DNA from: a virus
Direction: 5' to 3' (one strand)
Length of the DNA stretch: 38,741 nucleotides
IMG/VR virus record: IMGVR_UViG_3300022602_003843
Coordinates: 1 to 38,741 of that record
The notes below the pieces were generated by a model. It saw only the letters and a program-made list of their open reading frames with translations. It searched no databases and was not told the origin of the DNA. The position numbers were made by a program, and so were the translations under genes. This document shows, in pieces, positions 7,501 to 31,753 of this stretch. Position 1 is the stretch's first letter, and every line of letters begins with the position of its first letter.

Positions 7501-7529
7501 AAACCGGGCTAAATGCCCGGTTTATTTTT
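7501..7529 (+). terminator. Intrinsic terminator after the sheath gene
   Basis: Perfect 9-bp stem AAACCGGGC / GCCCGGTTT with a 5-nt loop (TAAAT), followed by a T-rich tract (ATTTTT). It sits 8 nt after the sheath stop and separates the sheath transcript from the accessory island. Confidence 0.9.
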
Positions 7530-7542
7530 CATCAAGTTGACC

Positions 7543-7550
7543 GTAAATAT
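7543..7550 (+). promoter_or_regulatory. Late-promoter-like motif GTAAATAT
   Basis: GTAAATAT ends 4 nt before the ATG at 7555, directly behind the sheath terminator. It would restart late transcription into the small gene and the first radical SAM gene, with an almost leaderless mRNA. Confidence 0.4.
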
Positions 7551-7554
7551 ATTC

Positions 7555-7851
7555 ATGCATGACACGTCCGATGATGATATTGTACTCAAGTTAAAAAACG
7601 ACATTAGTGCAGCATTGTACACTTATCTAACTGGCTTACATACACAGTTAGAGATAAACAGCAATGCTGCAATAGCTAACGACATAGTTCTGTCAGTTTT
7701 GAGCTTAAACATAGGTCATATATTAGGACAATTAGACCCAGATTCTAGACGTGAGAATTTAGAATTAGTAAACGGTATCATAGTTGATCAGATTACCGAA
7801 GTAAACAAATTATCTTCTATTCAGACCTACGGCATCATAGGCCACGGATGA
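7555..7851 (+). CDS. Small helical protein of unknown function before a radical SAM gene
   Basis: 98 aa, acidic and helical, without cysteine or membrane segment. I start at the ATG at 7555, because an upstream in-frame ATG (7513) lies inside the sheath terminator hairpin. The stop overlaps the start of the radical SAM gene by 4 nt (ATGA), so the two are translationally coupled. The protein ends SIQTYGIIGHG, a short Gly-rich tail after a folded-looking body; that arrangement, next to a radical SAM enzyme, is compatible with a modified-peptide precursor. Alternatively it is an ordinary small phage protein or an accessory subunit. No family recognised. Confidence 0.65.
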   Translation: MHDTSDDDIVLKLKNDISAALYTYLTGLHTQLEINSNAAIANDIVLSVLSLNIGHILGQLDPDSRRENLELVNGIIVDQITEVNKLSSIQTYGIIGHG

Positions 7852-8759
7852 TATCTAAGATATCTAACGAAAACCCCGATTGCGGTATGGTAACATTGTT
7901 CTTGCACAATTATTGCAATTATTCTTGTACATATTGCAGCCCTGTACATCGCGATAATACTCACAGATGGCCAGAAGATTATGCCCCATATGTGAATTTT
8001 TTAAAAAAAGTACGCGAAAGAAATAGATATCTTTATGTTGAAATTTTAGGTGGTGAACCAACCTTATGGCCCAATTTTAGACTTTTTTTAGACGAAATAT
8101 CTGATGACAATACATACATAGAATTCAGTACTAACGCATCTAGAACATTGCGATATTGGGACGAATTTAAACCAGGATCGATGTATATGATGATGAGCTG
8201 GCATCATGAACAGTGTGATGATGATCATTTTTTTGAAGTAGCTAAGATGATGCAACACAAGGTAAGCTTGAGTGTTGCATTAATGATAGTACCTGAAAAC
8301 TTCGATCGTGCTCAGCGCATGCAACGGCGGTTGGAAGGGTTAGATATAGAAATTTTACCTCGCTTCGTTAGGCTTGATATCAATAGTACGCAATTTCTTA
8401 ATTACACAGATGAACAGAAAGACTGGATAGCAAATTACAGATATCTCAATATGAAACCGCACGATGTCAGTTGGGAGCTGCCTATAAATTTGCATCTCGA
8501 TGGAACAAAGATACGCTTTCCGCAAATATTAAATCAAAATTTACATAATTTCAAAGGCATGACTTGTTCTGCAGGCGTAAAGAGATTTTATGTCAATTAC
8601 GATGGTAACATTTATAGATGTTCTAGGCGAGTTGGATCAACTATTGGCAATATTTTTGAAGAATATCAACTGCCAGCACAAGGTATCATATGCGATCAAG
8701 ATTTATGTCCTTGTAAATGGGATGCTATAGTAGAAAAACAATTATTTAAGACAACGTAA
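7848..8759 (+). CDS. Radical SAM protein with C-terminal SPASM/twitch-like Cys region
   Basis: 303 aa. The radical SAM Cys motif is C23-x3-C27-x2-C30 (CNYSCTYC), followed by the SAM-binding LGGEPTL at 67-73 and a Ser/Thr-rich strand (EFSTNAS). The last 60 residues carry C-x-SAGVKRFYVNYDGNIYRC and CDQDLCPC, typical of an auxiliary iron-sulfur cluster (SPASM or twitch), as in peptide- and protein-modifying enzymes. Substrate unknown. The start ATG overlaps the stop of the 98-aa gene upstream by 4 nt. The 3' end overlaps the converging aminotransferase-like gene by 18 nt. The gene at 12786 has the same layout. Confidence 0.9.
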   Translation: MISKISNENPDCGMVTLFLHNYCNYSCTYCSPVHRDNTHRWPEDYAPYVNFLKKVRERNRYLYVEILGGEPTLWPNFRLFLDEISDDNTYIEFSTNASRTLRYWDEFKPGSMYMMMSWHHEQCDDDHFFEVAKMMQHKVSLSVALMIVPENFDRAQRMQRRLEGLDIEILPRFVRLDINSTQFLNYTDEQKDWIANYRYLNMKPHDVSWELPINLHLDGTKIRFPQILNQNLHNFKGMTCSAGVKRFYVNYDGNIYRCSRRVGSTIGNIFEEYQLPAQGIICDQDLCPCKWDAIVEKQLFKTT

Positions 8760-9590
8760 AAGCGACCGGACTCCGACGGGATGCCCGGCATTAGTCTTAG
8801 CTATGTGTATAGCTTTGGTAGGTATTAGATTAAAATCCTGGCAGACTTTTGCATATTCTAATTCATACTTTTTCCAGAAATACTCCGGACCTATCTTTTT
8901 CATAAATGCCATACCAATATGCAACAGACTTTGACAATTCATGTTAAAATCATTCATTAAGCTTATCGGCCCATCCGGCCTAACCCTAGCAAATCTAAGA
9001 GCAATCCTGTCATTGCCTAATCCACCCTTGCTTAAACTTATAGCAAATGACTGTATAGCTGGATGATTGAAATCAAAGTTGATATCTCTGCTGCAAGTAA
9101 TCCATGCACCATCAATGTGAACTGGTATATCTAACTCGGCGCACCGATCGAGTATCTGGTACATCTCTGGATGTACGTCACCGTAAGCAGGAAACGGCAT
9201 GGAAATGAGTAATTCCTTGCTAGCATCTAACGTGTTTATGGTTACGTATTCGATGTCGTTATTAAGTCTCCAGTGATACCTGTAATCGTTCTCAAATACC
9301 ATAAGCCTAGACTTGCTCAATCTCTGATATAGATCATCTATAAATTGAGTACAACCTATACATATGTCCAAGCGTTCAAAATCCCTGTACCCTCTGATAT
9401 TACTCATAGCATGTCTGTCTAGGTAATCCAAGAAAGCTAACTTGAAATCATTGACAATATTTGTAGAATCTACCAGATTTTCTTTATAAATTGATCCGTA
9501 CATCTTGGTAATGCTAGAGTCATACATCGGCTGCGGTCGATCTACCTGTAACCATTCTCTAGAATATTTTCGGTCTGGCCCATCTCTCAT
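8742..9590 (-). CDS. PLP-dependent aminotransferase-fold protein, shortened
   Basis: 282 aa with the landmarks of fold-type I aminotransferases: CIGCTQFIDDLY at 77-88 (phosphate-loop position), HIDGAW with Asp160 (pyridine N contact), SLSKGG with Lys188 (Schiff-base Lys) and NDRIAL with Arg195 (phosphate contact). Usual family members are 350-400 aa, so the N-terminal arm and part of the small C-terminal domain are reduced. It may transaminate, decarboxylate or bind an amino-acid-like group. It is the only minus-strand gene inside the plus-strand half of the island. No clear Shine-Dalgarno site precedes ATG 9590; an inverted repeat lies 4 nt upstream. A second protein of the same fold and size is encoded at 18678. 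Confidence 0.75.
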   Translation of the reverse strand: MRDGPDRKYSREWLQVDRPQPMYDSSITKMYGSIYKENLVDSTNIVNDFKLAFLDYLDRHAMSNIRGYRDFERLDICIGCTQFIDDLYQRLSKSRLMVFENDYRYHWRLNNDIEYVTINTLDASKELLISMPFPAYGDVHPEMYQILDRCAELDIPVHIDGAWITCSRDINFDFNHPAIQSFAISLSKGGLGNDRIALRFARVRPDGPISLMNDFNMNCQSLLHIGMAFMKKIGPEYFWKKYELEYAKVCQDFNLIPTKAIHIAKTNAGHPVGVRSLLRCLK

Positions 9591-9593
9591 GGT

Positions 9594-9607
9594 ACAAGTT
9601 TACTTGT
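9594..9607. promoter_or_regulatory. Inverted repeat ACAAGT-TT-ACTTGT, possible operator
   Basis: Two perfect 6-bp half-sites separated by TT in the 68-bp region between divergent genes, with a further ACAAG at 9613-9617. It covers the position where the minus-strand gene would need its ribosome site, so it could bind a regulator of the divergent pair. A candidate plus-strand promoter follows: TTTACT, then TATATA, 17 nt apart. Confidence 0.35.
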
Positions 9608-9632
9608 CTGCTACAAGATCGTATATATTGAT

Positions 9633-9659
9633 ATGGATGATATGCTGGACAAATCTTGA
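9633..9659 (+). CDS. Possible 8-residue leader peptide MDDMLDKS
   Basis: A short ORF ending TGA whose last base is the A of the ATG starting the radical SAM gene (TGATG). It could couple translation to the downstream gene, or simply be chance. Nothing else supports it. Confidence 0.2.
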   Translation: MDDMLDKS

Positions 9660-10933
9660 TGTGGTGCCCTCTACCCTGGACACACCTTGGAGTTAAGAAC
9701 AATGGCGATCTACGCATGTGTTCTCACAGCCAAAGTGCGGGTAAGGGTAATACCCTATTGTGTAATAATAACGTCCCACTGACTATAGCTGATTTATCAA
9801 CCGTTGACGTTATGAATTGCGACACCCTTAAAGGCGTGCGCAGAGACATGTTAAAAGGTAAATGGCCAACTCAATGTAAACGATGCAAAGATGAATCTCT
9901 ATCTGGTAGTAACAGCCGCGATCGATGGGAAACAGACAGGCATAAAGATACGTTTACCAAAGAGCTAGCGCTGTCTTTGACAGATATAGACGGCACAGTA
10001 AACGGTGGTCAATGGCAAGATTTTGATCTACGCATAGGTAATGAATGTAATCTAAGATGTGTTATGTGTTTTGCTGGCGAATCGTCTAAGTGGTTTGATG
10101 TTCATCAAGAAATATTAGGTTGGGATTATTTTGTTGTGGATGGTAAGAAATATGATCTGTCTACATCAAGAAACGGTTTTGGCTGGTCAAAAGATAAAGC
10201 AAACATAGACGCTCTTATACACAGCTCTGATGCATTATCGAAGATTGTATTTGGTGGCGGTGAACCATTGCTAATTAAACACCATCGGTATCTGTTAGAG
10301 GCACTGATTTCGCAAGGACATGCCAGCAGAATGGAGCTAGAATATAGCTCTAATCTCACATTTTTCCCACCAGATATATTCTATCTGTGGAAGCATTTTA
10401 AAAAAATACGTATTTGTGGCAGTATTGATGCAGCCGGATCTGCTAATGAAGCTATTAGATATAATACCAAGTGGCAAGTTGTAGTAGACAATCTAAGAAT
10501 GTTAGATGCAACGGCAGATAATATAGAGGTATTCTTATCAACAACGATCAGTATATTGTCTCTAGAACACTACGGTAAATTGCTATCATGGATAGCTGAT
10601 CAAAGGTACAACAAGATACACGACACTGTCAGTCACTTGGTATATAATCCAAAATATTTTAATATTGGATTACTTGAAAAATCTCAATTGAATAGGATCG
10701 TGGATTCGGCAACATTGCCAGTTGTTCAACAGCCAAAGTTTGTAAAGAAAATAGATCACTATCGATCATTGCACGATACGATAAACATGACTGACGATGA
10801 AATGAAAGAGCAGCGAATGTATTTCTTGCGTGTTTGGGATAATCTACAAAAAAATCAACAGCAAGATTGGTATGAATTATTTCCAATGGCAGCGGGTGTA
10901 GCACGTGAATGGAAAGATCTCTATGGCAACTGA
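9659..10933 (+). CDS. Radical SAM protein with N-terminal twitch-like Cys region
   Basis: 424 aa. The N-terminus has C3PLPW, NNGDLRMC at 14-21 and C73-KR-C76, the auxiliary-cluster pattern normally found at the C-terminus of SPASM enzymes, placed here before the core. The radical SAM motif is C130-x3-C134-x2-C137 (CNLRCVMC), with FGGGEPLL at 198-205. ATG 9659 is chosen so that the Cys-Pro-x-Pro-Trp motif starts at residue 3; a TTG one codon upstream is possible. It overlaps the next gene, a paralogue, by 11 nt. Family members act on peptides or proteins in known cases; the substrate here is unknown. Confidence 0.9.
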   Translation: MWCPLPWTHLGVKNNGDLRMCSHSQSAGKGNTLLCNNNVPLTIADLSTVDVMNCDTLKGVRRDMLKGKWPTQCKRCKDESLSGSNSRDRWETDRHKDTFTKELALSLTDIDGTVNGGQWQDFDLRIGNECNLRCVMCFAGESSKWFDVHQEILGWDYFVVDGKKYDLSTSRNGFGWSKDKANIDALIHSSDALSKIVFGGGEPLLIKHHRYLLEALISQGHASRMELEYSSNLTFFPPDIFYLWKHFKKIRICGSIDAAGSANEAIRYNTKWQVVVDNLRMLDATADNIEVFLSTTISILSLEHYGKLLSWIADQRYNKIHDTVSHLVYNPKYFNIGLLEKSQLNRIVDSATLPVVQQPKFVKKIDHYRSLHDTINMTDDEMKEQRMYFLRVWDNLQKNQQQDWYELFPMAAGVAREWKDLYGN

Positions 10934-12236
10934 TACGTTTTGTCCAATACCTTGGAATTTCCAGGCTGTTCGTAGCAACGGAGATTTGCGAGTATGTTGC
11001 CAAGCTAACATAACCAAAAACAAGGGAGTGGTGCGAAAGGCAGACGGCACGCCGTATAATGCTGCTAAAGATGACATAGATGAAGCTAGAAACAGCGACC
11101 TCATGAAGATCATGCGCAAGAACATGCTAAATGGAATTTGGAGCCAAGAATGCGGTCGCTGTAAATCTGAAGAAGAAACTGGCCTAATCAGCAGGCGCAA
11201 CTATGAACACGATAGATGGACATTGAGAATAGAAGATATCAAGGCATTCACAGCAGACGATGGTAGCATTGATACTACAGCCCTGCCTGTAAAATACTAT
11301 GACTTGCGATTTGGAAATCTGTGTAATCTAGCATGCAGGATGTGTGGGCCGCAAGACAGCACAGGTTGGTATGAAGACTATCATAAATTAGAAGGCAAGG
11401 ATTGGTTCTTTGACACGCACGGTCGCGAGCAGATGACCAGACAGAACGGTAAATGGACAAGTCCTAGCTATAGCTGGCATGATAGCGATAGCTTTTGGAA
11501 GCAGATAGAAGATAACATTGATAATATCCAGCACGTATATATGGCAGGCGGCGAACCATTGCTCATAGAACGGCATTACGAATTTTTAGAACGTTGCATA
11601 GAAAATGGTGCCGCTAAGAACATGTTAATCGAGTATAATACCAACATGACTAGTGTATCGTCCAGGGCTATCAACTTATGGAAAAATTTCAGGCGTATAC
11701 AAATAGGTGCAAGCATAGACGGGTATGGTCCCGTGTTAGAATACCAGCGTTATCCAGCTAATTGGGATAAAGTATGGCGTAATATACAGATAATAGATCA
11801 AACTCCGTATAACATCGAAGCTTGGTTAGCTTATACCGTTACTGCATATAATGTATTACATTTGCCAGATTTCATGCGATGGAAACTGGAATCCAGCGGA
11901 TTACAGAAATTTAACAACACCAAAAAACGTCCAATAGTAACGCATCACGTGGCACACCAACCTTTGCATTTAAACATAAGGGTGTTACCGCCTCAGATTA
12001 AAAAATTAGTAGAGAAAAAATTCGACGACTTTCATCAATGGGTAATTTCAACTGATGCAATGCCACACATAGTAGCGAACGGTGTACATATCAAGAACAG
12101 CATATTAGATTATATGAATTCAGTTGACTTGCACGGAGAATATTGGCCTTATTTTGTTTCGACTACTAGAGCACTTGATAACATACGCGGTCAGTGCATA
12201 ATCAACATAGTACCAGAATTTGAGGATTATCTATGA
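10923..12236 (+). CDS. Radical SAM protein with N-terminal twitch-like Cys region (paralogue)
   Basis: 437 aa. Same build as the preceding gene: C7PIPW, NGDLRVCC (C25, C26) and C77-GR-C80, then the radical SAM motif C134-x3-C138-x2-C141 (CNLACRMC) and AGGEPLLIE. ATG 10923 with GGAAAG upstream is preferred over an earlier GTG at 10905. The two genes may act as a pair, one modifying and one assisting, or on successive positions. The end overlaps the SDR gene by 4 nt. Confidence 0.9.
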   Translation: MATDTFCPIPWNFQAVRSNGDLRVCCQANITKNKGVVRKADGTPYNAAKDDIDEARNSDLMKIMRKNMLNGIWSQECGRCKSEEETGLISRRNYEHDRWTLRIEDIKAFTADDGSIDTTALPVKYYDLRFGNLCNLACRMCGPQDSTGWYEDYHKLEGKDWFFDTHGREQMTRQNGKWTSPSYSWHDSDSFWKQIEDNIDNIQHVYMAGGEPLLIERHYEFLERCIENGAAKNMLIEYNTNMTSVSSRAINLWKNFRRIQIGASIDGYGPVLEYQRYPANWDKVWRNIQIIDQTPYNIEAWLAYTVTAYNVLHLPDFMRWKLESSGLQKFNNTKKRPIVTHHVAHQPLHLNIRVLPPQIKKLVEKKFDDFHQWVISTDAMPHIVANGVHIKNSILDYMNSVDLHGEYWPYFVSTTRALDNIRGQCIINIVPEFEDYL

Positions 12237-12796
12237 GTCGTATCTTAATAACCGGAAATCCGGAAAAAGGTCTAGCCAAAAGCATGAAGATCATATGGCC
12301 GGATGCGACATTTGTAAGCCGATCTAATGGATGGGATCTAACTATTGACACTAGGCGCAAGGATCTAGCCAATCTTGCACTAGAGCACGATGTGTTCATA
12401 AACAACAGTGCATTATGGAGATACCATCAATCTCTGCTGATGCACGATGTTTATACACAAGCAAAGCAACAGTCTCATCAACTGAAGATAATATGTATCG
12501 GCAGCACCACTGACAGGACGCGCAAGGGCAGCGATTGGTTATATCAGCAGGAAAAGATTGCGTTACGAAACCTATGCAACAGTTTGGCATTATACTCGGT
12601 ATGGGGTGGTGGACCATCGGTTACGTTAATAAGCTTTGGCACCTTGAGCAATAATCAACACAAGCATCCAGATAGGACCTGCATGGACATAGACCAAGCA
12701 GCTGGTTACATAAAATGGGTTTTGTCTCAACCAAATGGGGTAGCCATAAATGAACTAAGCATAGATCCATTGCAGGAGCAGGCGGATGCTAAGTGA
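12233..12796 (+). CDS. Short SDR-family (Rossmann) protein
   Basis: 187 aa. NAD(P)-binding type: ITGNPEKGL at the N-terminus (TGxxxGxG position, last Gly absent), FINNSA (NNAG position), ICIGST strand with the catalytic-type Ser, and the Tyr-x3-Lys pair in LYQQEK. The motif SRSNGWDL follows the second strand and recurs almost exactly in the SDR at 26581. SDR enzymes are usually near 250 aa, so the C-terminal substrate region is reduced. A dehydrogenase or reductase acting with the neighbouring radical SAM enzymes is likely, but the substrate is unknown. Overlaps both neighbours (4 and 11 nt). Confidence 0.72.
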   Translation: MSRILITGNPEKGLAKSMKIIWPDATFVSRSNGWDLTIDTRRKDLANLALEHDVFINNSALWRYHQSLLMHDVYTQAKQQSHQLKIICIGSTTDRTRKGSDWLYQQEKIALRNLCNSLALYSVWGGGPSVTLISFGTLSNNQHKHPDRTCMDIDQAAGYIKWVLSQPNGVAINELSIDPLQEQADAK

Positions 12797-13907
12797 TGCG
12801 GTAAGCGCGTATGATTTTACACAGATACCGTTCGATAGAATCACGAAATTTGGTCAACGTACCTTGCTGTATCGCGACATATTCTGTGTGAGTTGGCTTA
12901 TAGGTAGATATTGCAATTACAACTGCAGCTACTGTTGGCCGTATGCACGCAGCAATACTAAAGACTATCGACCAATTGAACTAAACCTAATGACTATGGA
13001 TGAGATCAAACGGCAGAGCAGAGAGCGCGGATACAACAGTTTCCACTTTAGTTTCAGCGGCGGCGAACCTACAGTATATCCTGACTATCTAAGGTTGCTT
13101 GAACATTACAGCAATGATACAGCTAACTGCAATTACCAAAGCGTTCACATGACTAGCAACATATCCCAAGGCTTGCGATGGTTTGAAAAATATGTTGCAG
13201 CTACTAAGGATCTGCATCGTGTAAGTGTCACAGCCAGCTGGCATCGCGAGCAGGGGATTAAGCAAGGTGATCTCAACGGTCATACTGAAAAGTTTGCTGA
13301 CAAGTTAGTGTTTCTTCAAGAAAACGACATACAGGTCACTGTGAACACGGTCATGGTGCCAGAATGGTTTGATACGTTGTACGGCGAAGCTGAGTACTTC
13401 CTCAGCCGAGGTATAAATGTTACTCTTAAACCGCAGAGTGATCCAACAGCAAGTAGAGTAGTAGATGGATACAGCGAAGAACAGTTAGCCATACTTCATA
13501 ATGGCATGCCGCAGAGAGATTTTACAACTGTAAAGAGTCAGGTATCGAGGCCAAAACCTAAAATAAGCATGCAACGCATGAGCATTGATAACGGAGATGA
13601 TGCAAGCGTTCCTCAGATAATGCAAGTGGAGTTTGAAGACGATACTGGTAAGAAATGGTACATGGATCAAGCAGAGAGGTTCAACGCATTTAATTTCAAT
13701 AACTTCAAGAATTGGGATTGTGAGAGTGGTTATCGAAGCATTATCATACGCGAGCCAGATGGGGCAATTAAACGTAGCTACAGCTGCCAAGATAAACCGC
13801 TTGGTTATATAGAAACCGGTTTTAAATTATTTGATAGTCCGATGCCTTGTATCAGTGACGCATGTGTAAGCAGCGCTGATAGCAAAATACCAAAGAGACG
13901 TGCATGA
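12786..13907 (+). CDS. Radical SAM protein with C-terminal Cys region
   Basis: 373 aa. The motif is C43-x3-C47-x2-C50 (CNYNCSYC), followed by FSFSGGEPTVYP and a TSN strand. A C-terminal region has CESGYRSIIIREPDG, YSC and CISDAC, so probably one auxiliary cluster. It looks like an enlarged relative of the gene at 7848 (same CNY-x-C-x-YC motif, same WH(R/H)EQ strand). A CAGGAG site precedes ATG 12786. The following SDR gene overlaps by 4 nt. Confidence 0.9.
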   Translation: MLSDAVSAYDFTQIPFDRITKFGQRTLLYRDIFCVSWLIGRYCNYNCSYCWPYARSNTKDYRPIELNLMTMDEIKRQSRERGYNSFHFSFSGGEPTVYPDYLRLLEHYSNDTANCNYQSVHMTSNISQGLRWFEKYVAATKDLHRVSVTASWHREQGIKQGDLNGHTEKFADKLVFLQENDIQVTVNTVMVPEWFDTLYGEAEYFLSRGINVTLKPQSDPTASRVVDGYSEEQLAILHNGMPQRDFTTVKSQVSRPKPKISMQRMSIDNGDDASVPQIMQVEFEDDTGKKWYMDQAERFNAFNFNNFKNWDCESGYRSIIIREPDGAIKRSYSCQDKPLGYIETGFKLFDSPMPCISDACVSSADSKIPKRRA

Positions 13908-14407
13908 GATATGCATTAACAGGTCATACGCGAGGCATCGGAGCAAGTTTATTCCGACATCTATCTCCTAAGGCGATAGGATTTAGTGCAAGCACAGGTT
14001 ATGACATACGCAAATCATCGGACAGGCATTTAATAATAGATGCTGCTGCAAATTGCGATATTTTTATCAATAACGCGCATGCAGATTATGCGCAAGTATC
14101 TTTATTGATAGAGTTGTTCAGGGTATGGAAAGATAAACCAAAACATATCATCAATGTAGGTAGCGCAGTAACAGATCGAGCACTGAAACCAGAAAAATTA
14201 CATCTAGTTGAATATTCCGCACAGAAAGGTGCATTGAAATCTGTCATGAAAGATTTACAAGGATATGAATGCAAGGTTTCATACGTTCAATTCGGATATG
14301 TGGGGACTGATAGAATTTTAGAAAAATATCCTAACATGGATCCTACGCAATACATCACAATAGACCAAGCAATCGAAATCATTCTGAAACCGTTGCAATT
14401 ACCGTGA
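13904..14407 (+). CDS. Short SDR-family oxidoreductase
   Basis: 167 aa with the full set of classical SDR residues: TGHTRGIG at 6-13 (nucleotide binding), FINNAH with Asn56-Asn57, IINVGS with Ser87, and Tyr104-x3-Lys108 (YSAQK). It is therefore likely to be a catalytically competent NAD(P)-dependent dehydrogenase or reductase, although it is much shorter than usual. It is more complete than the SDR at 12233. Overlaps upstream and downstream genes by 4 nt each. Confidence 0.82.
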   Translation: MRYALTGHTRGIGASLFRHLSPKAIGFSASTGYDIRKSSDRHLIIDAAANCDIFINNAHADYAQVSLLIELFRVWKDKPKHIINVGSAVTDRALKPEKLHLVEYSAQKGALKSVMKDLQGYECKVSYVQFGYVGTDRILEKYPNMDPTQYITIDQAIEIILKPLQLP

Positions 14408-16892: not shown

Positions 16893-16911
16893 CTATAGGT
16901 TATAATGATAA

Positions 16912-19520: not shown

Positions 19521-19522
19521 TA

Positions 19523-20254: not shown

Positions 20255-20940
20255 TGTGGACTGAACTAGTTCCTAACGAAGTATGGTGGTGCGATAACTT
20301 CCTTGCACCTGATACCTACGACCGTGTATTGCAGGGTTTCATAAAAAGCGATATCAGTGTGCTAGATGGCCGCACTAGGAAACACGCGGTTGGTGAGACT
20401 TTTTACAATTACAATGTAGTGAAATTGGCAGTAAGAGATGATAAACTTTTGATAGAAGAAGTGTTTAATAAAATCAATTTAGTGATAGCTAAACAAGGAG
20501 ATCCTATTCTCGATCCATCGTCTACGCTTGGTTATCTGCAATTTTTTGCTAAGAGTTTTAACCAAGATAGCAGATATGATTTACATGCTGAGAGTAAAGC
20601 TATGTTTGGAAAGTATGTATTTGTAAATTATCTCTCTGACGAAGAAACAGGTGAGTTGGTATTTCCAAGTGAGAATGGTGCCGACGAATTTTTGCTAGTA
20701 CATCCTGACAATCGAAAAGGCTGGGAAGAAACTAAGATAACTTGTGCTAAAGAGGACAATCCTGTACGGTATATCGGACCACTTACAATAAAACCTAGAA
20801 AGAATTCATGTGCTTTATTTGTGACCGGAGTGGCGCATTATGTAAATCCTGTAACAGATGGCGGAACCAGACCAAGCCTAAGCGGTTGGCCCTATGCATC
20901 AGATGCATATGTTGAATGGTATAAAAAGAATAATTCTTAG
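20254..20940 (+). CDS. 2OG/Fe(II) oxygenase (DSBH fold), paralogue
   Basis: 228 aa. Clear tandem paralogue of the preceding gene: YDLHAES with H111 and E113, NYLSDEETGELVFPSE, IKPRKNSCALF and distal His195 in GVAHYVNP. ATG 20254 overlaps the previous stop by 1 nt (TGATG). It ends 4 bases into the converging SET-domain gene, with no terminator between the two operons. Confidence 0.82.
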   Translation: MWTELVPNEVWWCDNFLAPDTYDRVLQGFIKSDISVLDGRTRKHAVGETFYNYNVVKLAVRDDKLLIEEVFNKINLVIAKQGDPILDPSSTLGYLQFFAKSFNQDSRYDLHAESKAMFGKYVFVNYLSDEETGELVFPSENGADEFLLVHPDNRKGWEETKITCAKEDNPVRYIGPLTIKPRKNSCALFVTGVAHYVNPVTDGGTRPSLSGWPYASDAYVEWYKKNNS

Positions 20941-21266
20941 TAAAAATCGGATATTGAACTGGTCAATGTTCTGTAATCAAGTGTTAATTCTTCGCCTATG
21001 TCTATGTTTTCGCGAGATTTTATAACTATCTGACCGTCTATGTAAAGATTTGGACTACGGCTATGATTAATCATAGTGTTTGTACATTCTATGCAATAGC
21101 CTGTACCACGTATGGGCAAGTGTATGCCGTCAACAGGTATAACAGCTCCGTTTAATATACCAACTATAGATTCTGCTGATATATTATCATCTGCGAATCT
21201 GCCTTGGCCATGTATATTACTTGGACATATTACAGTTGGAACCAACCATATATTGTCTTGTAGCAT
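20937..21266 (-). CDS. Small SET-domain protein
   Basis: 109 aa. The three SET landmarks are present: HGQGRFA at 19-25, NHSRSPN at 67-73 and GEELTLDY at 91-98. SET domains transfer methyl groups from SAM to protein lysines. No pre- or post-SET region, so it is a minimal domain like those reported in some bacteria and viruses. ATG 21266 is preferred over a frame-open extension to 21425, because it overlaps the upstream stop as TGATG and begins just before the first SET strand. Last gene of the 11-gene minus-strand chain. Confidence 0.8.
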   Translation of the reverse strand: MLQDNIWLVPTVICPSNIHGQGRFADDNISAESIVGILNGAVIPVDGIHLPIRGTGYCIECTNTMINHSRSPNLYIDGQIVIKSRENIDIGEELTLDYRTLTSSISDFY

Positions 21267-21991
21267 CAAAGATCCTGTATATCTTCCTGACCTGCCAGGC
21301 TGAACATAAGACAGATGCGGTCTTCCTGGCCTTCGTGTCGCACTGCATGCCTGTGTCCTATATTGAGGAAATATGCTGATCCGTCTGCTATCATATGGTA
21401 TTCCTCTAATTGATTGCGGACCCAAAATAGATTGGTAACGTCGTCTGTTCCTTGGATTGGTACTATTATTCTAACAGCATATTCTGGACCATAGTCGATG
21501 TGGGGCGTGAGGTCACTACCGGGTTTTAACCGTGTGAGACGCACTCGTATGGGTTTAGCCTTGAATTGCGAGCTAATAGCCTCCTGGAAATAGCTTCCAT
21601 CGTAGGCCTTGAGAGGGTGCCACCAATTGTGTTCGTTCATGGCAGGCGGTAGCAACTCAGTTCTGCGTATCTTATTGCGGAATTTTTCTACTTTGCTAGA
21701 ACCAAGAGAATCAGAACGTGCTATGGTTCGGCATTCTGCTTTAAGCTCACTGAGGTCCATGAGAGTGTTGAATGTTGGTTCAAAATATGTGAGATTAATT
21801 TGGTCAAAGTGTTGATGATTGCGTTCTGCTAAGTCTTCGTGGTTGCTGCATAATCCTCTATTGGCTTGAAACAGATTTACCCATTCTTGATCTAAACGTT
21901 TGACTTCGGCTTTCATTTTATCCAAGTCAAAGCTAATGTTTGGGAGCTTGGCAAAAGTCGGCAATTGATACTTGGTTTTCACTGTGGTCAT
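21266..21991 (-). CDS. Aspartyl/asparaginyl beta-hydroxylase-like oxygenase
   Basis: 241 aa. The C-terminal half matches the AspH-type DSBH: RVRLTRLKPGSDLTPHID with His164 and Asp166, RIIVPIQGT, DGSAYFLNIGHRHAV with distal His215, and Arg225 in EDRICLM. The N-terminal 120 residues are helical and may position the substrate. Such enzymes hydroxylate Asp or Asn side chains in proteins or peptides, but relatives act on other substrates. It overlaps its neighbours by 1 and 4 nt. Confidence 0.85.
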   Translation of the reverse strand: MTTVKTKYQLPTFAKLPNISFDLDKMKAEVKRLDQEWVNLFQANRGLCSNHEDLAERNHQHFDQINLTYFEPTFNTLMDLSELKAECRTIARSDSLGSSKVEKFRNKIRRTELLPPAMNEHNWWHPLKAYDGSYFQEAISSQFKAKPIRVRLTRLKPGSDLTPHIDYGPEYAVRIIVPIQGTDDVTNLFWVRNQLEEYHMIADGSAYFLNIGHRHAVRHEGQEDRICLMFSLAGQEDIQDL

Positions 21992-22578
21992 ATTAGATTT
22001 TCCTCTATGAGACTTGCAACTGAATCAAATTCCATTGGCTCATAAAAATTCAACATCATCATAAGCCTATTAGCTCCATTTGAATTGTCAACATTATGCC
22101 ATTGATTAACTCTAAACAATGTTGGAACCTTGGTATAGATGTCTTCTACCCAATTTTTATCTTCATCGTAATACTTAGTTGGTATTGTTCCCATGCCAAT
22201 TATCGGCACGATCAATGCGCATGACTTATCTCTGAATCGATCTCCGCTGAGATTACTCGGAGTGGCACGCATCTGGTGCACATTGTCGTCTCTGTCTGGT
22301 ACGTATTCTGGCACTGCCTTGAGATCATCTGATACTGTTTCACCGTTATGTTTATGAATGCTAATAAATCCGTTGCTGTGTATCCATGTTATGTAACTGC
22401 TTTCCCAGATTTTTTTCTTAAAATTACGCATTAAACTAGGCGGCGGATCGGCAAATAGGTCTCCAGCTGGAGCACTGGCATAGCGTATCCATGATTTATT
22501 CTTAAAACCATTTAAGACAATGTCTATGAACTCAGCAGAATCATAGACAATCTGCGGGAATGGTTTATGGCGTTGCAT
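21988..22578 (-). CDS. DSBH (2OG oxygenase-like) protein
   Basis: 196 aa. A probable double-stranded beta-helix: ITWIHSNGFISIHKHNGE contains His-x-His and Glu ligand candidates, followed by SCALIVPIIGMG, TLFRVNQWHNVDNS with a distal His, and NRLMMMLNF with an Arg candidate. Motif spacing is less standard than in its neighbours, so it may be a divergent or inactive member. Overlaps by 4 nt downstream and 14 nt upstream. Confidence 0.62.
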   Translation of the reverse strand: MQRHKPFPQIVYDSAEFIDIVLNGFKNKSWIRYASAPAGDLFADPPPSLMRNFKKKIWESSYITWIHSNGFISIHKHNGETVSDDLKAVPEYVPDRDDNVHQMRATPSNLSGDRFRDKSCALIVPIIGMGTIPTKYYDEDKNWVEDIYTKVPTLFRVNQWHNVDNSNGANRLMMMLNFYEPMEFDSVASLIEENLI

Positions 22579-23362
22579 TTCTTTTTCTCACTATATCTCG
22601 TACTTTAGATATGCTACGTTCAAGTTTATCTATTTCACAGATCACGTCATTTGCATTAGATGCACACCGATGTAACAGATCGGCATGTCGGCTATTCATT
22701 TTCTTCTGTTGGCTCTGGTATGATTGTAGATCAGCATATGAGATGCCTAATTCTGGAATTTCAATATCAGGAAGATCTTCATACCAGATGCAAGGCATGC
22801 TATGGTTAAACAACTGCCATGCATATAAATTGATTATGTTGCGCCCGATGTAGTGTACGTGGGCTAAGTCAACCTCAAATTGCTGTGACACTGCATTGAT
22901 ATACTTGTCCATGCTAGCGTCATCTCGAACATGCCATATGTTAGTATGTTTGCTCAACACATATGATATCACCTGAGCTCTCGTATCATATCTATTCAGT
23001 ATGATTTTATTATAGACATCGCTGCCAAAATGTCGGTCATATAGATCGTAATTGCGTCCTTCAAAATCCTGCATGAATATCTTGAAAACTGGAAAGATCT
23101 TGCTTTTAGCTAGCTGTGCTATTCTCTGATGCAATACACCGTTAATATAAGGTCTGGTGATCCATTCGTACCTGTCTATGGTAATTGGATCCCATTCAGG
23201 AGTGAACGCACTAGAAGATTCAAAAACTTCATAAAGGTTCTTGAATTTTTCCAATGGATATTTCTTAGCTAGCACTTCTGTTAGCATCTCTACAACATGA
23301 GTTGATCCTGTGCGAGGTGCAGCGAATACTATCAGTCCTTTATATCTCAAATGATCACTCAC
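22565..23362 (-). CDS. Sulfotransferase-like P-loop protein
   Basis: 265 aa. IVFAAPRTGST at 11-21 is the 5'-phosphosulfate binding loop of PAPS sulfotransferases (Stf0-like), and KIILNRYDTRAQVISY is the 3'-phosphate-binding strand with Arg. The C-terminal part has IWYEDL, a strand typical of this family, then a helical tail. It would transfer a sulfo group from PAPS to a hydroxyl or amine, if the host supplies PAPS. It overlaps its neighbours by 14 and 8 nt. Confidence 0.8.
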   Translation of the reverse strand: MSDHLRYKGLIVFAAPRTGSTHVVEMLTEVLAKKYPLEKFKNLYEVFESSSAFTPEWDPITIDRYEWITRPYINGVLHQRIAQLAKSKIFPVFKIFMQDFEGRNYDLYDRHFGSDVYNKIILNRYDTRAQVISYVLSKHTNIWHVRDDASMDKYINAVSQQFEVDLAHVHYIGRNIINLYAWQLFNHSMPCIWYEDLPDIEIPELGISYADLQSYQSQQKKMNSRHADLLHRCASNANDVICEIDKLERSISKVRDIVRKRNATP

Positions 23363-23912
23363 GCGCTAGCCATACCTCAAAATTGCGAAACAATTTACCA
23401 TTGGCAATTAAATTATACACTGAGATGAAATCTTCATTGAATCCAAATTCCAAATGCAATCGCAATGATGGACCATTGGTTAAACTATGTGGTGCCTGTG
23501 TGTCGTGTAACCAATCGTATCCGCCGGACGGATCGCAAGATTCTATGATGGTACCCAGTTCATCGTGATAGTCGCATGGTATGATATCGCGATAGCTTAA
23601 AGGAATCATCAACAGTGTGCGGCGTGCAAAGCCGTTGGCATTACTGAGGTCATCGGTGTGAATATGATTTACGAGATTAGGACGTACTGCGACAAATTCT
23701 AAACCGCCTTGCAACACACAATCATTAATGATATCGTCGTAATTGTCTAAAAGTCTGCGTGCTAGTTCCGTATTTGTCCATGATGAATTGGCACCACCGT
23801 GTATGGCACCTGGTCCATTAAAATGATCAACTTCGGGGTGGTTGATAACGTATTGATACACACGTTCCTTATCAGGAATAATGTTAGTTTTAAGCAGTGC
23901 AAAGTGTTTCAT
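23355..23912 (-). CDS. 2OG/Fe(II) oxygenase-like protein
   Basis: 185 aa. NHIHTDDLSNA gives the His-x-Asp pair, RRTLLMIPLS is the following strand, and TQAPHSLTNGPSLRLHLEF gives the distal His with an Arg two strands on. These features support an active Fe(II)/2OG site. Overlaps neighbours by 8 and 4 nt. Confidence 0.78.
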   Translation of the reverse strand: MKHFALLKTNIIPDKERVYQYVINHPEVDHFNGPGAIHGGANSSWTNTELARRLLDNYDDIINDCVLQGGLEFVAVRPNLVNHIHTDDLSNANGFARRTLLMIPLSYRDIIPCDYHDELGTIIESCDPSGGYDWLHDTQAPHSLTNGPSLRLHLEFGFNEDFISVYNLIANGKLFRNFEVWLARE

Positions 23913-24568
23913 GGTGTATAGCTTACAACAAAGTTACTTTCGTTGGGTAATCTTTCTTTGCGACCGTACATCAATTCCTTGACAAAATCGGTGTGATAAA
24001 AATCCATGACTAAATGTATGCGAGTTTCGTTGCTATGGTTTTTAACGCTGTGTATGGCGATATTATCAATTTCGACCAAGTCTGCATCAGTAAAATTAAA
24101 AACCTGGTCATCAATTATGAAATCTACCAATGGATTAGTCTTGACTACGAGATGCACACGCTTGCTTACAGCCATGCTTGGTTCATCATCCCAGTGCGGC
24201 CACAAGAGGCCTTGAGGTGCTAACCGATTGAAAAAACATTTGTTCACAAAAGCATCAATGCCTCCGAGATGTCTATCTTTAACGTGATCGATGATGGGTT
24301 GCAGTACATCTTGCCAAGCATACCAAGATGGATACACTGCGGTATCATCGTATGGAGCTATATCTAATTGCCTGCCTGTGTAATGATATTCCCCGTTATT
24401 CCATTTTTCTGCGTTGTATTTGAAGTAGATAACATCTCGACCTGCTGGGCGTGCTATTGGTTGCCAGTCTTGTTCAGTTAACCTATCTACTTGATCTCTT
24501 AGTTTTTCAAAAAGATCATCTGGTAATTTGCCAATTGGTATCAATCTATGACCGCCAAGTATTCTCAT
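23909..24568 (-). CDS. Aspartyl/asparaginyl hydroxylase-like oxygenase
   Basis: 219 aa. FNRLAPQGLLWPHWDDE contains His-x-Asp, followed by KRVHLVVKTN, LVEIDNIAIHSVKNHS with a distal His, and ETRIHLVMDF with Arg, the complete AspH-type core. Overlaps its neighbours by 4 nt on each side. Confidence 0.84.
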   Translation of the reverse strand: MRILGGHRLIPIGKLPDDLFEKLRDQVDRLTEQDWQPIARPAGRDVIYFKYNAEKWNNGEYHYTGRQLDIAPYDDTAVYPSWYAWQDVLQPIIDHVKDRHLGGIDAFVNKCFFNRLAPQGLLWPHWDDEPSMAVSKRVHLVVKTNPLVDFIIDDQVFNFTDADLVEIDNIAIHSVKNHSNETRIHLVMDFYHTDFVKELMYGRKERLPNESNFVVSYTP

Positions 24569-25302
24569 GCTGTTTCCCTTACCATAAAGAATTTTTCAAT
24601 GATCACAGCCGGTAAGTCAATATCACCGGCTTGTCTCCTGTTATCCCAGTTGCTTGGATCTGCATGATGAGTGTTGTGCAATCCGCTGCCTAGGGTAATT
24701 AGATTAACTAATCTATTATTATAACTGTGGTCTTTGGTGTCAAAATCTCGGTCTCCGTGATGATGGCATACTGTGTTGACTAATCCGGCTAGATGGAATG
24801 ATATCACGCTAGGGATACTGATTAGGAAGATTGGTAATTGCCAATTTATCAATGCTAAGACAAGCAAAAGGCTTCCTATGATCCAAAAGTACCATCGGTA
24901 AATGAATAATTGATCTCGATCGCGCACAAGGTCGCTGACGTATTTTGGTTCAATGTTAAATGGTTTCCAAAAAGTAGTCCAAATTCTCCATAGTGGTTGA
25001 CTGCCGTGTGGATCTCTGTCCGAATCGCTGAATGCATGATGTTTACGATGCACTCCTGCCCATGCCAACGGTGGACCAAAACAATTAAGGCAGGCTAGAG
25101 ACAATAAAATGTAATGTTTGATTCGAGTGGTATTGAAGCTTTTATGGCAGAAATATCTATGCAGCCCAATCTCGCCTCCAATCTTGTTGATAAAAAGCAG
25201 AGCCACGAGCGATACAAACAACAAGCGTGCATCGCCGTATATTAAACCATATAGGGCTGCAGCATGATTGGCTATGATCAAAGCTTTAATCTTGATGTTC
25301 AT
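24565..25302 (-). CDS. Fatty-acid desaturase (acyl-CoA/lipid type, membrane)
   Basis: 245 aa membrane protein with the three histidine boxes of delta-9-type desaturases: HRYFCH at 48-53, HRKHH at 85-89 and HNTHH near residue 211, plus a further HHHGD cluster. Hydrophobic stretches lie near 5-40, 65-80 and 145-185. It inserts a double bond into an acyl chain using di-iron, O2 and an electron donor. ATG 25302 is preferred over 25329 because it gives the TGATG overlap with the gene upstream. Its place in a chain of soluble oxygenases suggests a lipid or acylated substrate. Confidence 0.92.
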   Translation of the reverse strand: MNIKIKALIIANHAAALYGLIYGDARLLFVSLVALLFINKIGGEIGLHRYFCHKSFNTTRIKHYILLSLACLNCFGPPLAWAGVHRKHHAFSDSDRDPHGSQPLWRIWTTFWKPFNIEPKYVSDLVRDRDQLFIYRWYFWIIGSLLLVLALINWQLPIFLISIPSVISFHLAGLVNTVCHHHGDRDFDTKDHSYNNRLVNLITLGSGLHNTHHADPSNWDNRRQAGDIDLPAVIIEKFFMVRETA

Positions 25303-25928
25303 CAATAGAAGGGTAGCACGGCTACCCACCTCCCGTTTTCACCAACAACTGGCGTGACCTCATGATACATATCATAAGGAAATACTATTAAATCTCCTTG
25401 TGACGCCCACTCATTAATGTGGATATCATCTGACGACATGTCATAGAATACTGTGCCACCTTCTGTGTAATCTTTACCAAATTGATTTAGATGCAGTATC
25501 AATCCAACGAATTGAGGATCGTAATCATGTTTATGACGCCGAAAGTAGTTGCAATTCCTATAGTGCAAAAGCTCTAGGTGATACCTACCTTTTGCATGAT
25601 AGTTGATAGCATGTGAATTTAAAAATCTCAGATTATCGATGCAGTCACGCATTTGCACATATAGGTTTATGATGTTAGGTACAGGCAATCGCAAAGGTTC
25701 GGCGAGCCTATAATAATCTACGCTACTATCCTGTGTCCAACGCGATTTAAAATTATCAATTTTCCAGTGTGGTGTTTCAAAGTTTGGCAATGATAATTGT
25801 TGAGCTTCGACTATGATATCGTAGCAGATATCTGCAGGCATAAAATCTTTGATAACTGCTATGTCTCCTTGAGATACCAGTTCATAAACTGGATTAGATT
25901 GCCAGTTATCTAGCGTTTTTACTTTCAT
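25302..25928 (-). CDS. 2OG/Fe(II) oxygenase
   Basis: 208 aa. YFRRHKHDYDPQFVGLILHL carries the His/Asp ligands, EGGTVFYD the next strand, and QGDLIVFPYDMYHEVTPV the distal His; GRWVAVLPFY at the very C-terminus gives the 2OG-binding Arg. This pattern (GTVFYD, GDLIVFP, H-V-TPV) is the prolyl-4-hydroxylase-like type common in marine phages. Overlaps 1 nt downstream, 4 nt upstream. Confidence 0.87.
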   Translation of the reverse strand: MKVKTLDNWQSNPVYELVSQGDIAVIKDFMPADICYDIIVEAQQLSLPNFETPHWKIDNFKSRWTQDSSVDYYRLAEPLRLPVPNIINLYVQMRDCIDNLRFLNSHAINYHAKGRYHLELLHYRNCNYFRRHKHDYDPQFVGLILHLNQFGKDYTEGGTVFYDMSSDDIHINEWASQGDLIVFPYDMYHEVTPVVGENGRWVAVLPFY

Positions 25929-26584
25929 GCCAACTCTCTTAGCACGTAATCGTTATATTTAAGTAAGCTTCGCTGTACTAGTTCTCGATGAGCGCTTATA
26001 TCTACCTTACCTAAAATAAAACCTACAATTCTATGGTTATCATTGTGGTTTATATCTACACCATGGGGTTGCTGATAGTTTCTAATCAGGAAAAAATCGG
26101 TGGTATCTGGTATGGTAACATAATGTTTAGGCTGATCTATCTCTTGCTTGTATTCTGGATCGTAGTGCTTGCAAAAATAAAATGTATCACGGCTTCCGCT
26201 GAGTATGATACGATAGCCGATTGGCTCGTTTTCCAAGTGGTGCTGTTTCAGCTCTTTAGTGATAGCTTTATGATGCGCAAATGGTGGAATTTCATAATTA
26301 TCATCCACATGTACAGCCACTTTGGTGTGCGCTCTAGCTAGTCGCACATAAGTGAGATATTCAAAAGGAAGATGCATGTTAATGTGGTCAACCAAAGGAC
26401 CGAAATTAACAGCATTGGGATTCCACGATTCTGGATGGCCCAATGGTTTGGTATAATCTTTGTTGCCGAGCAGCACTTGCTCGTCCCACCAAACGTATCT
26501 TTCACCGCCGTTGAATGCAGACAATAGAACTTCTTTGTTTGGAATAGGCGGAATATCTAGCGGAGTAAACAACACATCTTTCAT
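25925..26584 (-). CDS. 2OG oxygenase, Asp/Asn-hydroxylase-like
   Basis: 219 aa. RLARAHTKVAVHVDD gives His-x-Asp, GYRIILSGSRDTFYF the following strands, and FLIRNYQQPHGVD with HRIVGFIL the distal His and Arg. Overlaps by 4 nt on both sides. Confidence 0.8.
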   Translation of the reverse strand: MKDVLFTPLDIPPIPNKEVLLSAFNGGERYVWWDEQVLLGNKDYTKPLGHPESWNPNAVNFGPLVDHINMHLPFEYLTYVRLARAHTKVAVHVDDNYEIPPFAHHKAITKELKQHHLENEPIGYRIILSGSRDTFYFCKHYDPEYKQEIDQPKHYVTIPDTTDFFLIRNYQQPHGVDINHNDNHRIVGFILGKVDISAHRELVQRSLLKYNDYVLRELA

Positions 26585-27066
26585 TTAAACCTACCCTGAA
26601 ATCGCAAGTTCTTAATCTCAATACCTGGATTATCAATTATAAATCGCACGCCGGCAGTGATGTTGTCTAAGTCAAATTCTCTGATATCATTTGGTTCAAT
26701 TAGGCTAATACGACAAGCATGTGGAAGATTTTGTAAATGTTCGACTGCTGAATGTAAGGCGCTTTTTTCAATCGGATATTTTTCGTATACCACTGACCAC
26801 TTACTGCTGTATGCTGCGTCGGTTCCGATGTTAATGAACAACTTATCTTGGTCTTTGAATGCATCAAACAGCGCTAGCATCAATTCTGTTTGTTGAAACT
26901 TTTTACCGTGTGCACAATTTATAAAAACATTGTGTTTTTCCATTTCGGCTACTATCTTATCGATGTTACATATGTCCCAACCATTGCTACGAGACATCCC
27001 TATAGCTCCGGGAAATGATTGATAAAGATGTTTACCAATTCGCGCAGTGTGTCCAGTTATTATCAT
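26581..27066 (-). CDS. Short SDR-family oxidoreductase
   Basis: 161 aa. ITGHTARIG (nucleotide-binding turn), SRSNGWDI, FINCAH (NNAG position, second Asn replaced by Cys), FINIGT (Thr at the Ser position) and YPIEK (Tyr-x3-Lys). It is closely related to the two SDRs of the plus-strand half (shared SRSNGWD and TGHT-x-R-IG blocks), which links the two halves of the island. ATG 27066 is chosen because it gives the 4-nt ATGA overlap with the gene upstream; a longer frame to 27084 exists. Confidence 0.75.
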   Translation of the reverse strand: MIITGHTARIGKHLYQSFPGAIGMSRSNGWDICNIDKIVAEMEKHNVFINCAHGKKFQQTELMLALFDAFKDQDKLFINIGTDAAYSSKWSVVYEKYPIEKSALHSAVEHLQNLPHACRISLIEPNDIREFDLDNITAGVRFIIDNPGIEIKNLRFQGRFK

Positions 27067-27635
27067 CTTTTGCCTAGCACGCATGCTACTAAATGTATTC
27101 GTTCAGTTTTTCCTGCATTCACTGCAGTATGATGCTTTGTTGTATCAACAAAATATGCACTACCGTCAGCCTTTAGATGGTTTGATGTTTCTTCGATCAA
27201 CAGGAATGAACCATCGTTTGTGATTATGGGTACGTGTAGTCGAGGTTCTCCGTCTGTGTGCCAACTCATTACTGTTTTTGGTCGTAATCTCATCAGCCTA
27301 ACTCTACCAAGAATGTAACTATTGGATAAAGTAGAGATGACCTGATTGAAAATTGTATTCCTGAATTCTTTAACTACGTGGACAAACTGCAACTCTGTTT
27401 TGATAACTTGTTTGCGTTTAAGTTGACCATTTTCATCATATGGATCGGGACCCCATGCAAATACCAAACTACCTACGCTATCGTACCACGCTTGCTCGCT
27501 AGATGGATCTAAGCTATGAGTTAAACCTATTTGGTTATGATCGCTGTGCCATTGGCATAATTGTAGTACTTCATCGAGGCCTTGTATAAGCTCCTCAGTG
27601 TTAAACTTGGCATCGAGCACTTGGATATATGACAT
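27063..27635 (-). CDS. Aspartyl/asparaginyl beta-hydroxylase-like oxygenase, first gene of the minus-strand operon
   Basis: 190 aa. RVRLMRLRPKTVMSWHTD with His126 and Asp128, RLHVPIITND, ADGSAYFVDTTKHHTAVN with the distal His, and ERIHLVACVL with Arg: a clean AspH-type site, very similar to the gene at 21266. It has the best ribosome site of the chain (AAGGAGAG), as expected for the first gene. A weak promoter (TTTCAA, 17 nt, TATATA) lies upstream on the minus strand. Confidence 0.86.
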   Translation of the reverse strand: MSYIQVLDAKFNTEELIQGLDEVLQLCQWHSDHNQIGLTHSLDPSSEQAWYDSVGSLVFAWGPDPYDENGQLKRKQVIKTELQFVHVVKEFRNTIFNQVISTLSNSYILGRVRLMRLRPKTVMSWHTDGEPRLHVPIITNDGSFLLIEETSNHLKADGSAYFVDTTKHHTAVNAGKTERIHLVACVLGKR

Positions 27636-31752: not shown

Positions 31753-31753
31753 T

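Follow-up and report, generated by a model that had tools for sequence, protein, structure and literature searches.

What is a run of some 20 kb of enzyme genes doing between the tail sheath and tail tube genes of a T4-like virus? The question is posed by the IMG/VR record IMGVR_UViG_3300022602_003843, analysed here over its entire 38,741 bp (the window), which is a fragment of a jumbo-type myovirus. Between its sheath gene g06 (3369-7493, plus strand, 1374 amino acids; phrog_10581 at E 1e-233, and phrog_23) and its tube gene g34 (27726-28319, plus strand; phrog_4542 at E 5e-48) lie ~20.2 kb with 27 open reading frames (ORFs) at 7513-27635, 99.0% coding. We find that the site carries an exchangeable island of two parts, a sheath-proximal core ending in the radical S-adenosylmethionine (radical SAM) gene g13 and a distal block, and that it is very probably a hypervariable modular biosynthesis island.

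A first-pass annotation had placed a 20-kb enzyme island here, and the PHROG matches of the flanking genes together with the coding density confirm it. Where it counted 24 accessory genes in overlapping chains there are 27 ORFs; the overlaps themselves hold, with 24 of the 26 neighbouring pairs sharing at least 4 nt, mostly in ATGA-type junctions. Genes g07-g22 lie on the plus strand except g09, and g23-g33 on the minus strand. Most of the ORFs code for enzymes: five radical SAM proteins, including a B12-binding one like TokK and CysS, at least seven 2-oxoglutarate (2OG)/AspH-type oxygenases and two pyridoxal 5'-phosphate (PLP) enzymes, along with three short proteins resembling short-chain dehydrogenases/reductases (SDR), a GNAT protein, a methyltransferase, a desaturase, a sulfotransferase, a SET protein and a protein-kinase fold. 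Pfam and NCBIfam support most of the enzyme classes named in that annotation; the SDR and aminotransferase matches are weak when taken singly, and family profiles back the PLP fold of g09 and g20.

It is indeed unusual for sheath and tube to lie so far apart. In 75 relatives holding both genes the gap has a median of 30 bp and is at most 300 bp in 64; it measures 0.7-1.8 kb in nine and is larger in two, namely Phosso (4.4 kb) and the distant contig L020 (8.9 kb). The window's tube protein is 47-53% identical to those of Phosso (from Sinorhizobium), Atu_ph07 (Agrobacterium) and PA5oct (Pseudomonas). An assembly chimera, which would have undone the finding, is ruled out because the junctions recur in independent contigs: the left one in at least 10, and the right one, where an AspH gene meets the tube, in others. 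The ORFs of the interval are listed below (Mosig is a cultured Pelagibacter phage discussed later).

g07, 7513-7851 (probable start 7555), plus: ~95-112 amino acids, all-alpha model, no PDB fold match
g08, 7848-8759, plus: radical SAM protein with C-terminal Cys-rich twitch-like region, STM4011-like (PF04055 2.4e-9; NF038073 70 bits, below the cut-off of 200)
g09, 8742-9590, minus: small PLP fold-type I aminotransferase-like protein (NCBIfam 1.8e-4; PDB 3if2/3g7q E 1e-4)
g10, 9656-10933, plus: N-terminal twitch radical SAM protein (NF033640 292 bits, cut-off 170)
g11, 10905-12236, plus: N-terminal twitch radical SAM protein, paralogue of g10 (NF033640 380 bits, cut-off 170)
g12, 12233-12796, plus: short SDR-like protein, one family with g14 and g32 (weak SDR match)
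g13, 12786-13907, plus: core radical SAM protein and island marker (PF04055 7e-13, over cut-off)
g14, 13904-14407, plus: short SDR-like protein of the g12/g32 family, first gene of the distal block (PF00106 weak)
g15, 14404-15150, plus: no PDB match; partner of g16 in L095, L096, L099 and L167/L169
g16, 15143-15709, plus: protein-kinase fold (family profile against PDB kinases 3.5e-5)
g17, 15706-16314, plus: GNAT acetyltransferase (PF00583 3e-8; 42% identical to a Mosig protein)
g18, 16311-16892, plus: methyltransferase, Methyltransf_24 (1.7e-5; 26.1 bits, just below the cut-off of 26.3)
g19, 16912-18681, plus: B12-binding radical SAM protein, KedN5/TokK/CysS-like C-methyltransferase (TokK 5e-40, CysS 3e-35, PDB)
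g20, 18678-19520, plus: small PLP-type enzyme of the g09 family (family alignment; 30% identical to a Mosig aminotransferase)
g21, 19511-20254, plus: 2OG-Fe(II) oxygenase (PF13640 2.9e-5)
g22, 20251-20940, plus: 2OG-Fe(II) oxygenase (PF13640 4.8e-6)
g23, 20937-21266, minus: stand-alone SET-domain protein, ~109 amino acids (PF00856 3.6e-6)
g24, 21266-21991, minus: AspH-type hydroxylase (PF05118 1.3e-5; 36% identical to a Mosig AspH)
g25, 21988-22578, minus: possibly 2OG-like (no Pfam match)
g26, 22565-23362, minus: sulfotransferase Stf0 (PF09037 6.3e-6)
g27, 23355-23912, minus: possibly 2OG-like (no Pfam match)
g28, 23909-24568, minus: AspH/LpxO-type hydroxylase (PF05118 1.2e-13; lipid A LpxO model weak, 21.8 bits)
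g29, 24565-25329, minus: membrane fatty-acid-desaturase family (PF00487 5e-17)
g30, 25302-25928, minus: 2OG-Fe(II) oxygenase (PF13640 2.5e-5)
g31, 25925-26584, minus: 2OG-type oxygenase by its invariant HxD...H...R motif (no notable Pfam match)
g32, 26581-27084, minus: short SDR-like protein of the g12/g14 family
g33, 27063-27635, minus: AspH-type hydroxylase (PF05118 2e-8)

A conserved core and an exchangeable distal block

The division of the island into two parts is most plainly seen in relatives with minimal versions of it (G001/L090, L094, L097; G and L numbers are our handles for contigs and loci). In these the sheath is followed, in this order or a near variant of it, by g07, in some cases g08, then g09, genes of the g10/g11 types, g12 and g13, after which the tube comes directly; such islands span 5.6-6.5 kb with 6-7 ORFs. 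The window therefore adds to this core a block of 13.7 kb, g14-g33, placed between g13 and the tube. Larger islands measure 14.6 kb (G002), 17.3 kb (L096), 19.3 kb (G009), 20.2 kb (the window), 23.9 kb (G010) and 25.7 kb (G003, a 518-kb contig whose island holds 34 ORFs). Compared with the window, their g12 is 51-61% and their g13 85-92% identical, while homologues of distal-block proteins are merely 21-54% identical or are replaced by unrelated enzymes; in the closest relatives the first tube protein (tube1), the head closure protein and TerL are mostly 76-94% identical. The blocks of G009/L096 contain relatives of g15, g16, g18, g19, g20, g22, g24, g29, g31 and g32 in a different order and orientation. 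Hence the single fixed "dedicated pathway" proposed in the first-pass annotation is not supported: phages with near-identical structural genes share a core and differ in the block attached to it. From the minimal islands it follows that the enzyme block can be exchanged as a module and is no kit for modifying the sheath.

In line with that annotation, the genes are nevertheless grouped and not a random pile. Recurrence of the set between sheath and tube is found for the core within the clade; the distal contents differ, and the core also lies elsewhere (see below). The pair g12-g13 recurs, and homologues of the desaturase g29 and AspH-type oxygenases are present in all larger complete radical SAM islands of the clade as well as in the L020 island, which is free of radical SAM genes. 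Moreover, the order g17-g19-g21-g22-g23-g24, with the last two genes on the opposite strand, is also found in L112, L119 and L121, which belong to another lineage, at 31-50% identity (the L121 GNAT is partial), so that at least this sub-block was inherited as a unit. Their clusters additionally code for a carbamoyltransferase, a UDP-sugar dehydrogenase and an FAD/NAD(P) reductase. Among the genes of the window's sister islands are those for a carbamoyltransferase, a UDP-sugar dehydrogenase, a flavin reductase, a thiolase, an NDP-sugar epimerase, an AMP-binding protein/AMP ligase, QueC-like ATPases and a Rieske oxygenase.

Family alignments and profiles add detail on several of the proteins. 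The small PLP-enzyme family uniting g09 and g20 has conserved Asp160 and Lys188. The kinase-fold family of g16 retains the DFG-type Asp, and the catalytic-loop HRD Asp appears replaced; wherever an island carries g15 it also carries g16. The match of g19 to TokK covers its first 395 residues in a PDB sequence search; g19 reaches 154 bits against the KedN5-type model NF033712, short of the cut-off of 700, and is not filed as a member, and as a single-protein query of virus contigs it gave no match. The g31 motif corresponds to a 2OG-oxygenase triad in the family alignment. Profile searches of PDB with g15, g31 and the DxD family f60 returned nothing useful. A longer ORF for g23, extending to 21425, probably has an over-called start, and the SET gene probably occupies 20937-21266, since its homologues have 108-124 residues. 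The homologue of g33 adjoins the tube in G010 and lies downstream of g13 in other loci.

The marker gene g13 and the core at other sites

To place the core in a wider context we collected relatives of g13, which occur in at least 598 virus-contig stretches, the best 80 of them at 61-92% identity (82-92% within the window's clade); no match was found among 50,697 isolate phage records in INPHARED, which includes the Campylobacter phage CP220. For an enzyme carried by mobile DNA, g13 is strongly conserved: a 31-sequence alignment of phage and bacterial proteins together shows ~90 invariant residues, among them the CxxxCxxC motif (C43, C47, C50) of the radical SAM barrel, which is itself assigned by fold match, and four further cysteines (C312, C334, C355, C360) that are suited to a second cluster. 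In an AlphaFold2 model (mean predicted local distance difference test score, pLDDT, of 87) only ~30 residues precede the barrel. Its best fold match is BlsE (Z 15.9), and MoaA and viperin follow at a distance of no more than 2 Z units; the fold alone is indecisive because BlsE, SkfB, EpeE, MoaA, viperin and anSME score closely. Of 67 non-identical loci, 62 have further radical SAM genes within 8 kb of g13, the median being 4, and in 21 of the 67 a gene of the g12-type short-SDR family, its commonest upstream partner, is directly upstream. The gene g13 serves as a marker defining a large class of radical-SAM-rich viruses.

In most of the best 80 loci g13 is not near the sheath or tube. Five contigs (G004 of 457 kb, G005 of 328 kb, G006, G007 and G008) have a sheath-tube gap of at most 1.9 kb and carry g13 elsewhere. 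Ten contigs of 64-519 kb have 5-22 radical SAM genes each, with 22 in both the 518-kb and the 328-kb contig. A species-level genome scan with g13 yielded eight loci, comprising chromosomes of Bdellovibrionota metagenome-assembled genomes (MAGs) as well as virus contigs sorted into the bins of other MAGs; matches labelled "Gammaproteobacteria MED685" and "Rickettsiales MED657" were set aside as cellular copies, as they look like virus contigs by content. An orthologue is present in 17 of 291 Bdellovibrionota genomes. These patchily distributed loci (L198-L211) mostly have two further radical SAM genes, one of a type absent from the window (f4) and one with an N-terminal twitch, and often code for a protein whose invariant D-(G/A)-D motif is suggestive of a glycosyltransferase, in addition to methyltransferase-like proteins and PLP enzymes; several have a true GT2 glycosyltransferase. 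A prophage origin of these copies was rejected: the five genomes tested have no TerL homologue, and the loci hold bacterial genes. The island is accordingly not sheath-specific, because the same core sits elsewhere in jumbo and T4-like contigs and in Bdellovibrionota. In the g13 tree all sheath-tube copies form one clade (SH-aLRT 100) next to the bacterial copies; the set that joins the two has support 99, and within it the bacterial copies do not resolve as a group.

Candidate substrates and products

In the explanation we favour, the stretch between sheath and tube would be a hot spot of recombination in a clade of jumbo T4-like phages, and would hold a mobile, modular locus for biosynthesis and tailoring that resembles natural-product pathways. 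The core, namely g10/g11, g09, g12 and g13, would perform a conserved radical conversion, probably of a common metabolite (a nucleotide, sugar-nucleotide or amino acid), and the distal block would vary the final structure by C-methylation through the B12-dependent radical SAM enzyme, hydroxylation by 2OG and AspH enzymes, desaturation, acetylation, methylation and sulfation. Most likely the product would be a free metabolite, or would be joined to, or remodel, a glycan or lipid in the envelope of the infected cell, and its variation would track an arms race through receptor masking, superinfection exclusion or counter-defence. We infer a single pathway for the enzymes, and likewise the class of substrate and the benefit to the virus; an envelope glycan, lipid or free metabolite as target is a tentative choice, and the explanation taken as a whole we regard as evenly poised. 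The constancy of g13 across differing carriers suggests that a common metabolite fits better than a phage-specific peptide, and the contents of the sister islands are at least as suggestive of chemistry on small molecules or glycans. In a bolder version, which seems to us rather unlikely, the system would be widespread: g13 and its twitch radical SAM partners would make one conserved, radical-derived scaffold of a virus-specific natural product, and hundreds of uncultured jumbo and T4-like viruses, together with some Bdellovibrionota, would use exchangeable tailoring genes to elaborate it into variants particular to each lineage, which would serve during infection as a chemical weapon, as protection or as a mark on a surface. 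Should it turn out that a new metabolite or surface decoration is produced, phages would be among the vehicles by which natural-product chemistry diversifies.

Several points weigh against this explanation. The window's own island contains no glycosyltransferase or NDP-sugar enzyme; several of the enzyme assignments fall below curated cut-offs, and most are at the level of fold or family; members of the desaturase and AspH families have substrates of several types, and the SET, kinase-fold and AspH-type proteins would also suit protein targets. Peptide maturases are likewise near g13 in fold (SkfB Z 14.8, EpeE 14.7, anSME 13.8). The genes may make up a single pathway or a number of moron-type cassettes unrelated to each other.

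The competitor that survives best, though we deem it unlikely, is modification of a peptide or virion protein in the manner of ribosomally synthesized and post-translationally modified peptides (RiPPs), with a proteusin-like enzyme mix whose target would be g07, the sheath or some other protein of the virion. It would accommodate the joint presence of SET, AspH, kinase-fold, GNAT and B12-dependent radical SAM proteins, the proximity of g13 to anSME, SkfB and EpeE in both sequence and fold, and the longer sheaths of island-bearing phages (1344-1374 amino acids, 1374 in the window, versus 810-1139 in others). It would also find a possible precursor in g07, which directly precedes the core and has an invariant G-x-(I/V)-G-H-A/G at its C-terminal end in the family alignment. 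However, the 99% coding interval leaves no space for a hidden precursor gene, and none was found in it, so that g07 is the sole candidate and may itself not be a precursor. It is seen only in the window's sub-clade, there always directly 3' of the sheath, and is missing from the islands of G002, G003 and G010; its model, of moderate confidence (pLDDT 72), is not the winged-helix of a RiPP recognition element (RRE). Nor do the ~30 residues before the g13 barrel give N-terminal room for an RRE. A peptide, one of the substrates proposed at the outset, is possible, with no clear precursor and with no RRE seen in the models of g07 and g13. The enlarged sheath, another of those proposals, is disfavoured: the core lies far from sheath and tube in jumbo phages and occurs on bacterial chromosomes, the related Mosig island is beside tail fibre genes, and L015 has a long sheath (a fragment of at least 1230 amino acids) and no island. 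Dedicated sheath modification was therefore rejected as the principal explanation.

Considerably less probable is a pathway for DNA hypermodification or a modified nucleotide directed against host restriction or defence, with chemistry like that of viperin or MoaA. Viperins are the best NCBIfam and Foldseek relatives of g13, the substrate of BlsE is a nucleoside-sugar, sister islands have QueC-like ATPases and a carbamoyltransferase, and rapid exchange would suit evasion of restriction. Against this, g13 scores 41 bits with the NCBIfam viperin model, whose cut-off is 180, and the window has no hallmark of DNA modification, its desaturase and sulfotransferase being ill-suited to DNA. In 10 large contigs no Tet/JBP match was obtained, in a search in which the control genomes were silent too, and members of the thymidylate-synthase family, which includes hydroxymethylases, occur in just two.

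Comparable regions and the insertion site

Radical SAM genes have been noted in numbers in other T4-like phages. The Campylobacter myoviruses CP220 and CPt10 are 96% identical and differ in a contiguous region of ~10 kb whose two versions have similar functions and unlike sequences; each version has five radical SAM genes, and each genome 11-12 (PMC2853527). The window and its close relatives G009/L096, G010 and G003 show the same kind of swap. In contrast to the window, the CP220/CPt10 module has no described set of 2OG, AspH, desaturase and SET genes and is not between sheath and tube. The f4-type radical SAM family matches CP220 distantly (27% over 47% of the query), and g11, g13 and the radical SAM gene g38 have no match to it. 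In pelagimyophages a hypervariable "host recognition cluster" lies within a structural region, and radical SAM cassettes in it distinguish two close genomes; its authors propose alteration of the host surface and avoidance of coinfection (PMC7029224). A cyanophage hyperplastic region is attributed to Millard 2009, as cited in PMC6722890. Like both, the window's island is hypervariable, non-syntenic and inside the T4-like structural module. The pelagimyophage cluster, however, is between VrlC and gp14 and has tail fibres and glycosyltransferases, neither of which is recognised in the g13-centred island of the window. We therefore regard the latter as the same kind of region and not as that cluster, because it is between sheath and tube and has no recognised tail fibre gene.

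Among cultured phages, Pelagibacter phage Mosig EXVC030M (MT647606) has a related island at ~54.5-72.5 kb, adjoining tail fibre genes. Its AspH is 70% identical to the L096 AspH24 homologue and its PLP enzyme of the g20 family 47% identical to that of L096, and it further has a desaturase, a carbamoyltransferase, a MoaA-type radical SAM protein, a methyltransferase and TauD. It differs from the window in having no g13 by tblastn, in its SAR11 host and in being a 141-kb record, not a jumbo-phage contig. These comparisons connect the viral modules with a limited set of chromosomal loci in Bdellovibrionota and with a phage in culture, whose host is SAR11. The Vibrio phages K566 and K567 have a radical SAM array, in K566 with PagP nearby. 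T4-like TARA_ERS488813_N000010 has 12 radical SAM genes in one genome, which its authors link to Fe-S metabolism (PMC5332604); they do not describe the arrangement of these genes. In the literature searched we found no description of the sheath-tube placement, a g13-centred core, an oxygenase-rich exchangeable block or the link to Bdellovibrionota. The abundance of radical SAM genes among T4-like phages has been remarked on since 2010; a minimal set of about six genes turns it into a testable pathway.

The sheath-tube junction receives other inserts too, which marks it as an insertion hot spot. A Hef-like homing endonuclease lies exactly between the two genes in PA5oct (L009, 13290-14906). A NUMOD3 protein directly follows the sheath in L100 (3560-5179), and a related 558-residue ORF lies between sheath and tube in L016 (2639-4315). 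It is plausible that homing endonucleases are the agent behind the hot spot. Such enzymes have been discussed as mediators of genome exchange in T4-type phages (PMC2993671). That the island consists of independent auxiliary or selfish cassettes gathered here with no shared pathway, as the endonucleases in relatives, the strong variation in content and inserts such as a Ro-like protein might suggest, we consider the least probable of the alternatives, by a shade, given that distant viruses share the gene orders g12-g13 and g17-g24, radical SAM arrays surround g13 in 62 of the 67 loci and start/stop codon overlaps run through both gene chains.

The Ro-like RNA-binding protein is coded for between sheath and tube in Phosso (L008, 15979-17643). 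The neighbouring junction is variable as well, as the distant relative L021 has HAD-like and other ORFs at 1575-4776 between tube1 and tube2; in the window a tube-like protein of 582 amino acids with a long C-terminal extension is encoded at 28389-30137. A second variable site, at 30146-33002 between g36 and the head-closure gene g39, contains zero, one or two radical SAM copies in relatives. Two further features beyond the island are:

g37 and g38, 30619-32994, plus: two radical SAM genes in the second variable site, outside the interval given in the first-pass annotation
T4-type late promoter TATAAATA, 27693-27700, plus: upstream of the tube and kept in relatives

The promoter stands 33 nt before the tube ATG. 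No exact TATAAATA precedes any island gene in the window, exact copies being found only before Ad2 and the tube, and the sheath is preceded by the variant GATAAATA; with this arrangement the island could plausibly be expressed late, through transcription that runs on from the sheath. The divergent intergenic region between g09 and g10 (9591-9655) has AAGTTTACTTG, which is kept in L095, L096 and L097 and partly in L094. At the corresponding place in L116, L138 and L146, a sequence resembling a T4 late promoter faces g09.

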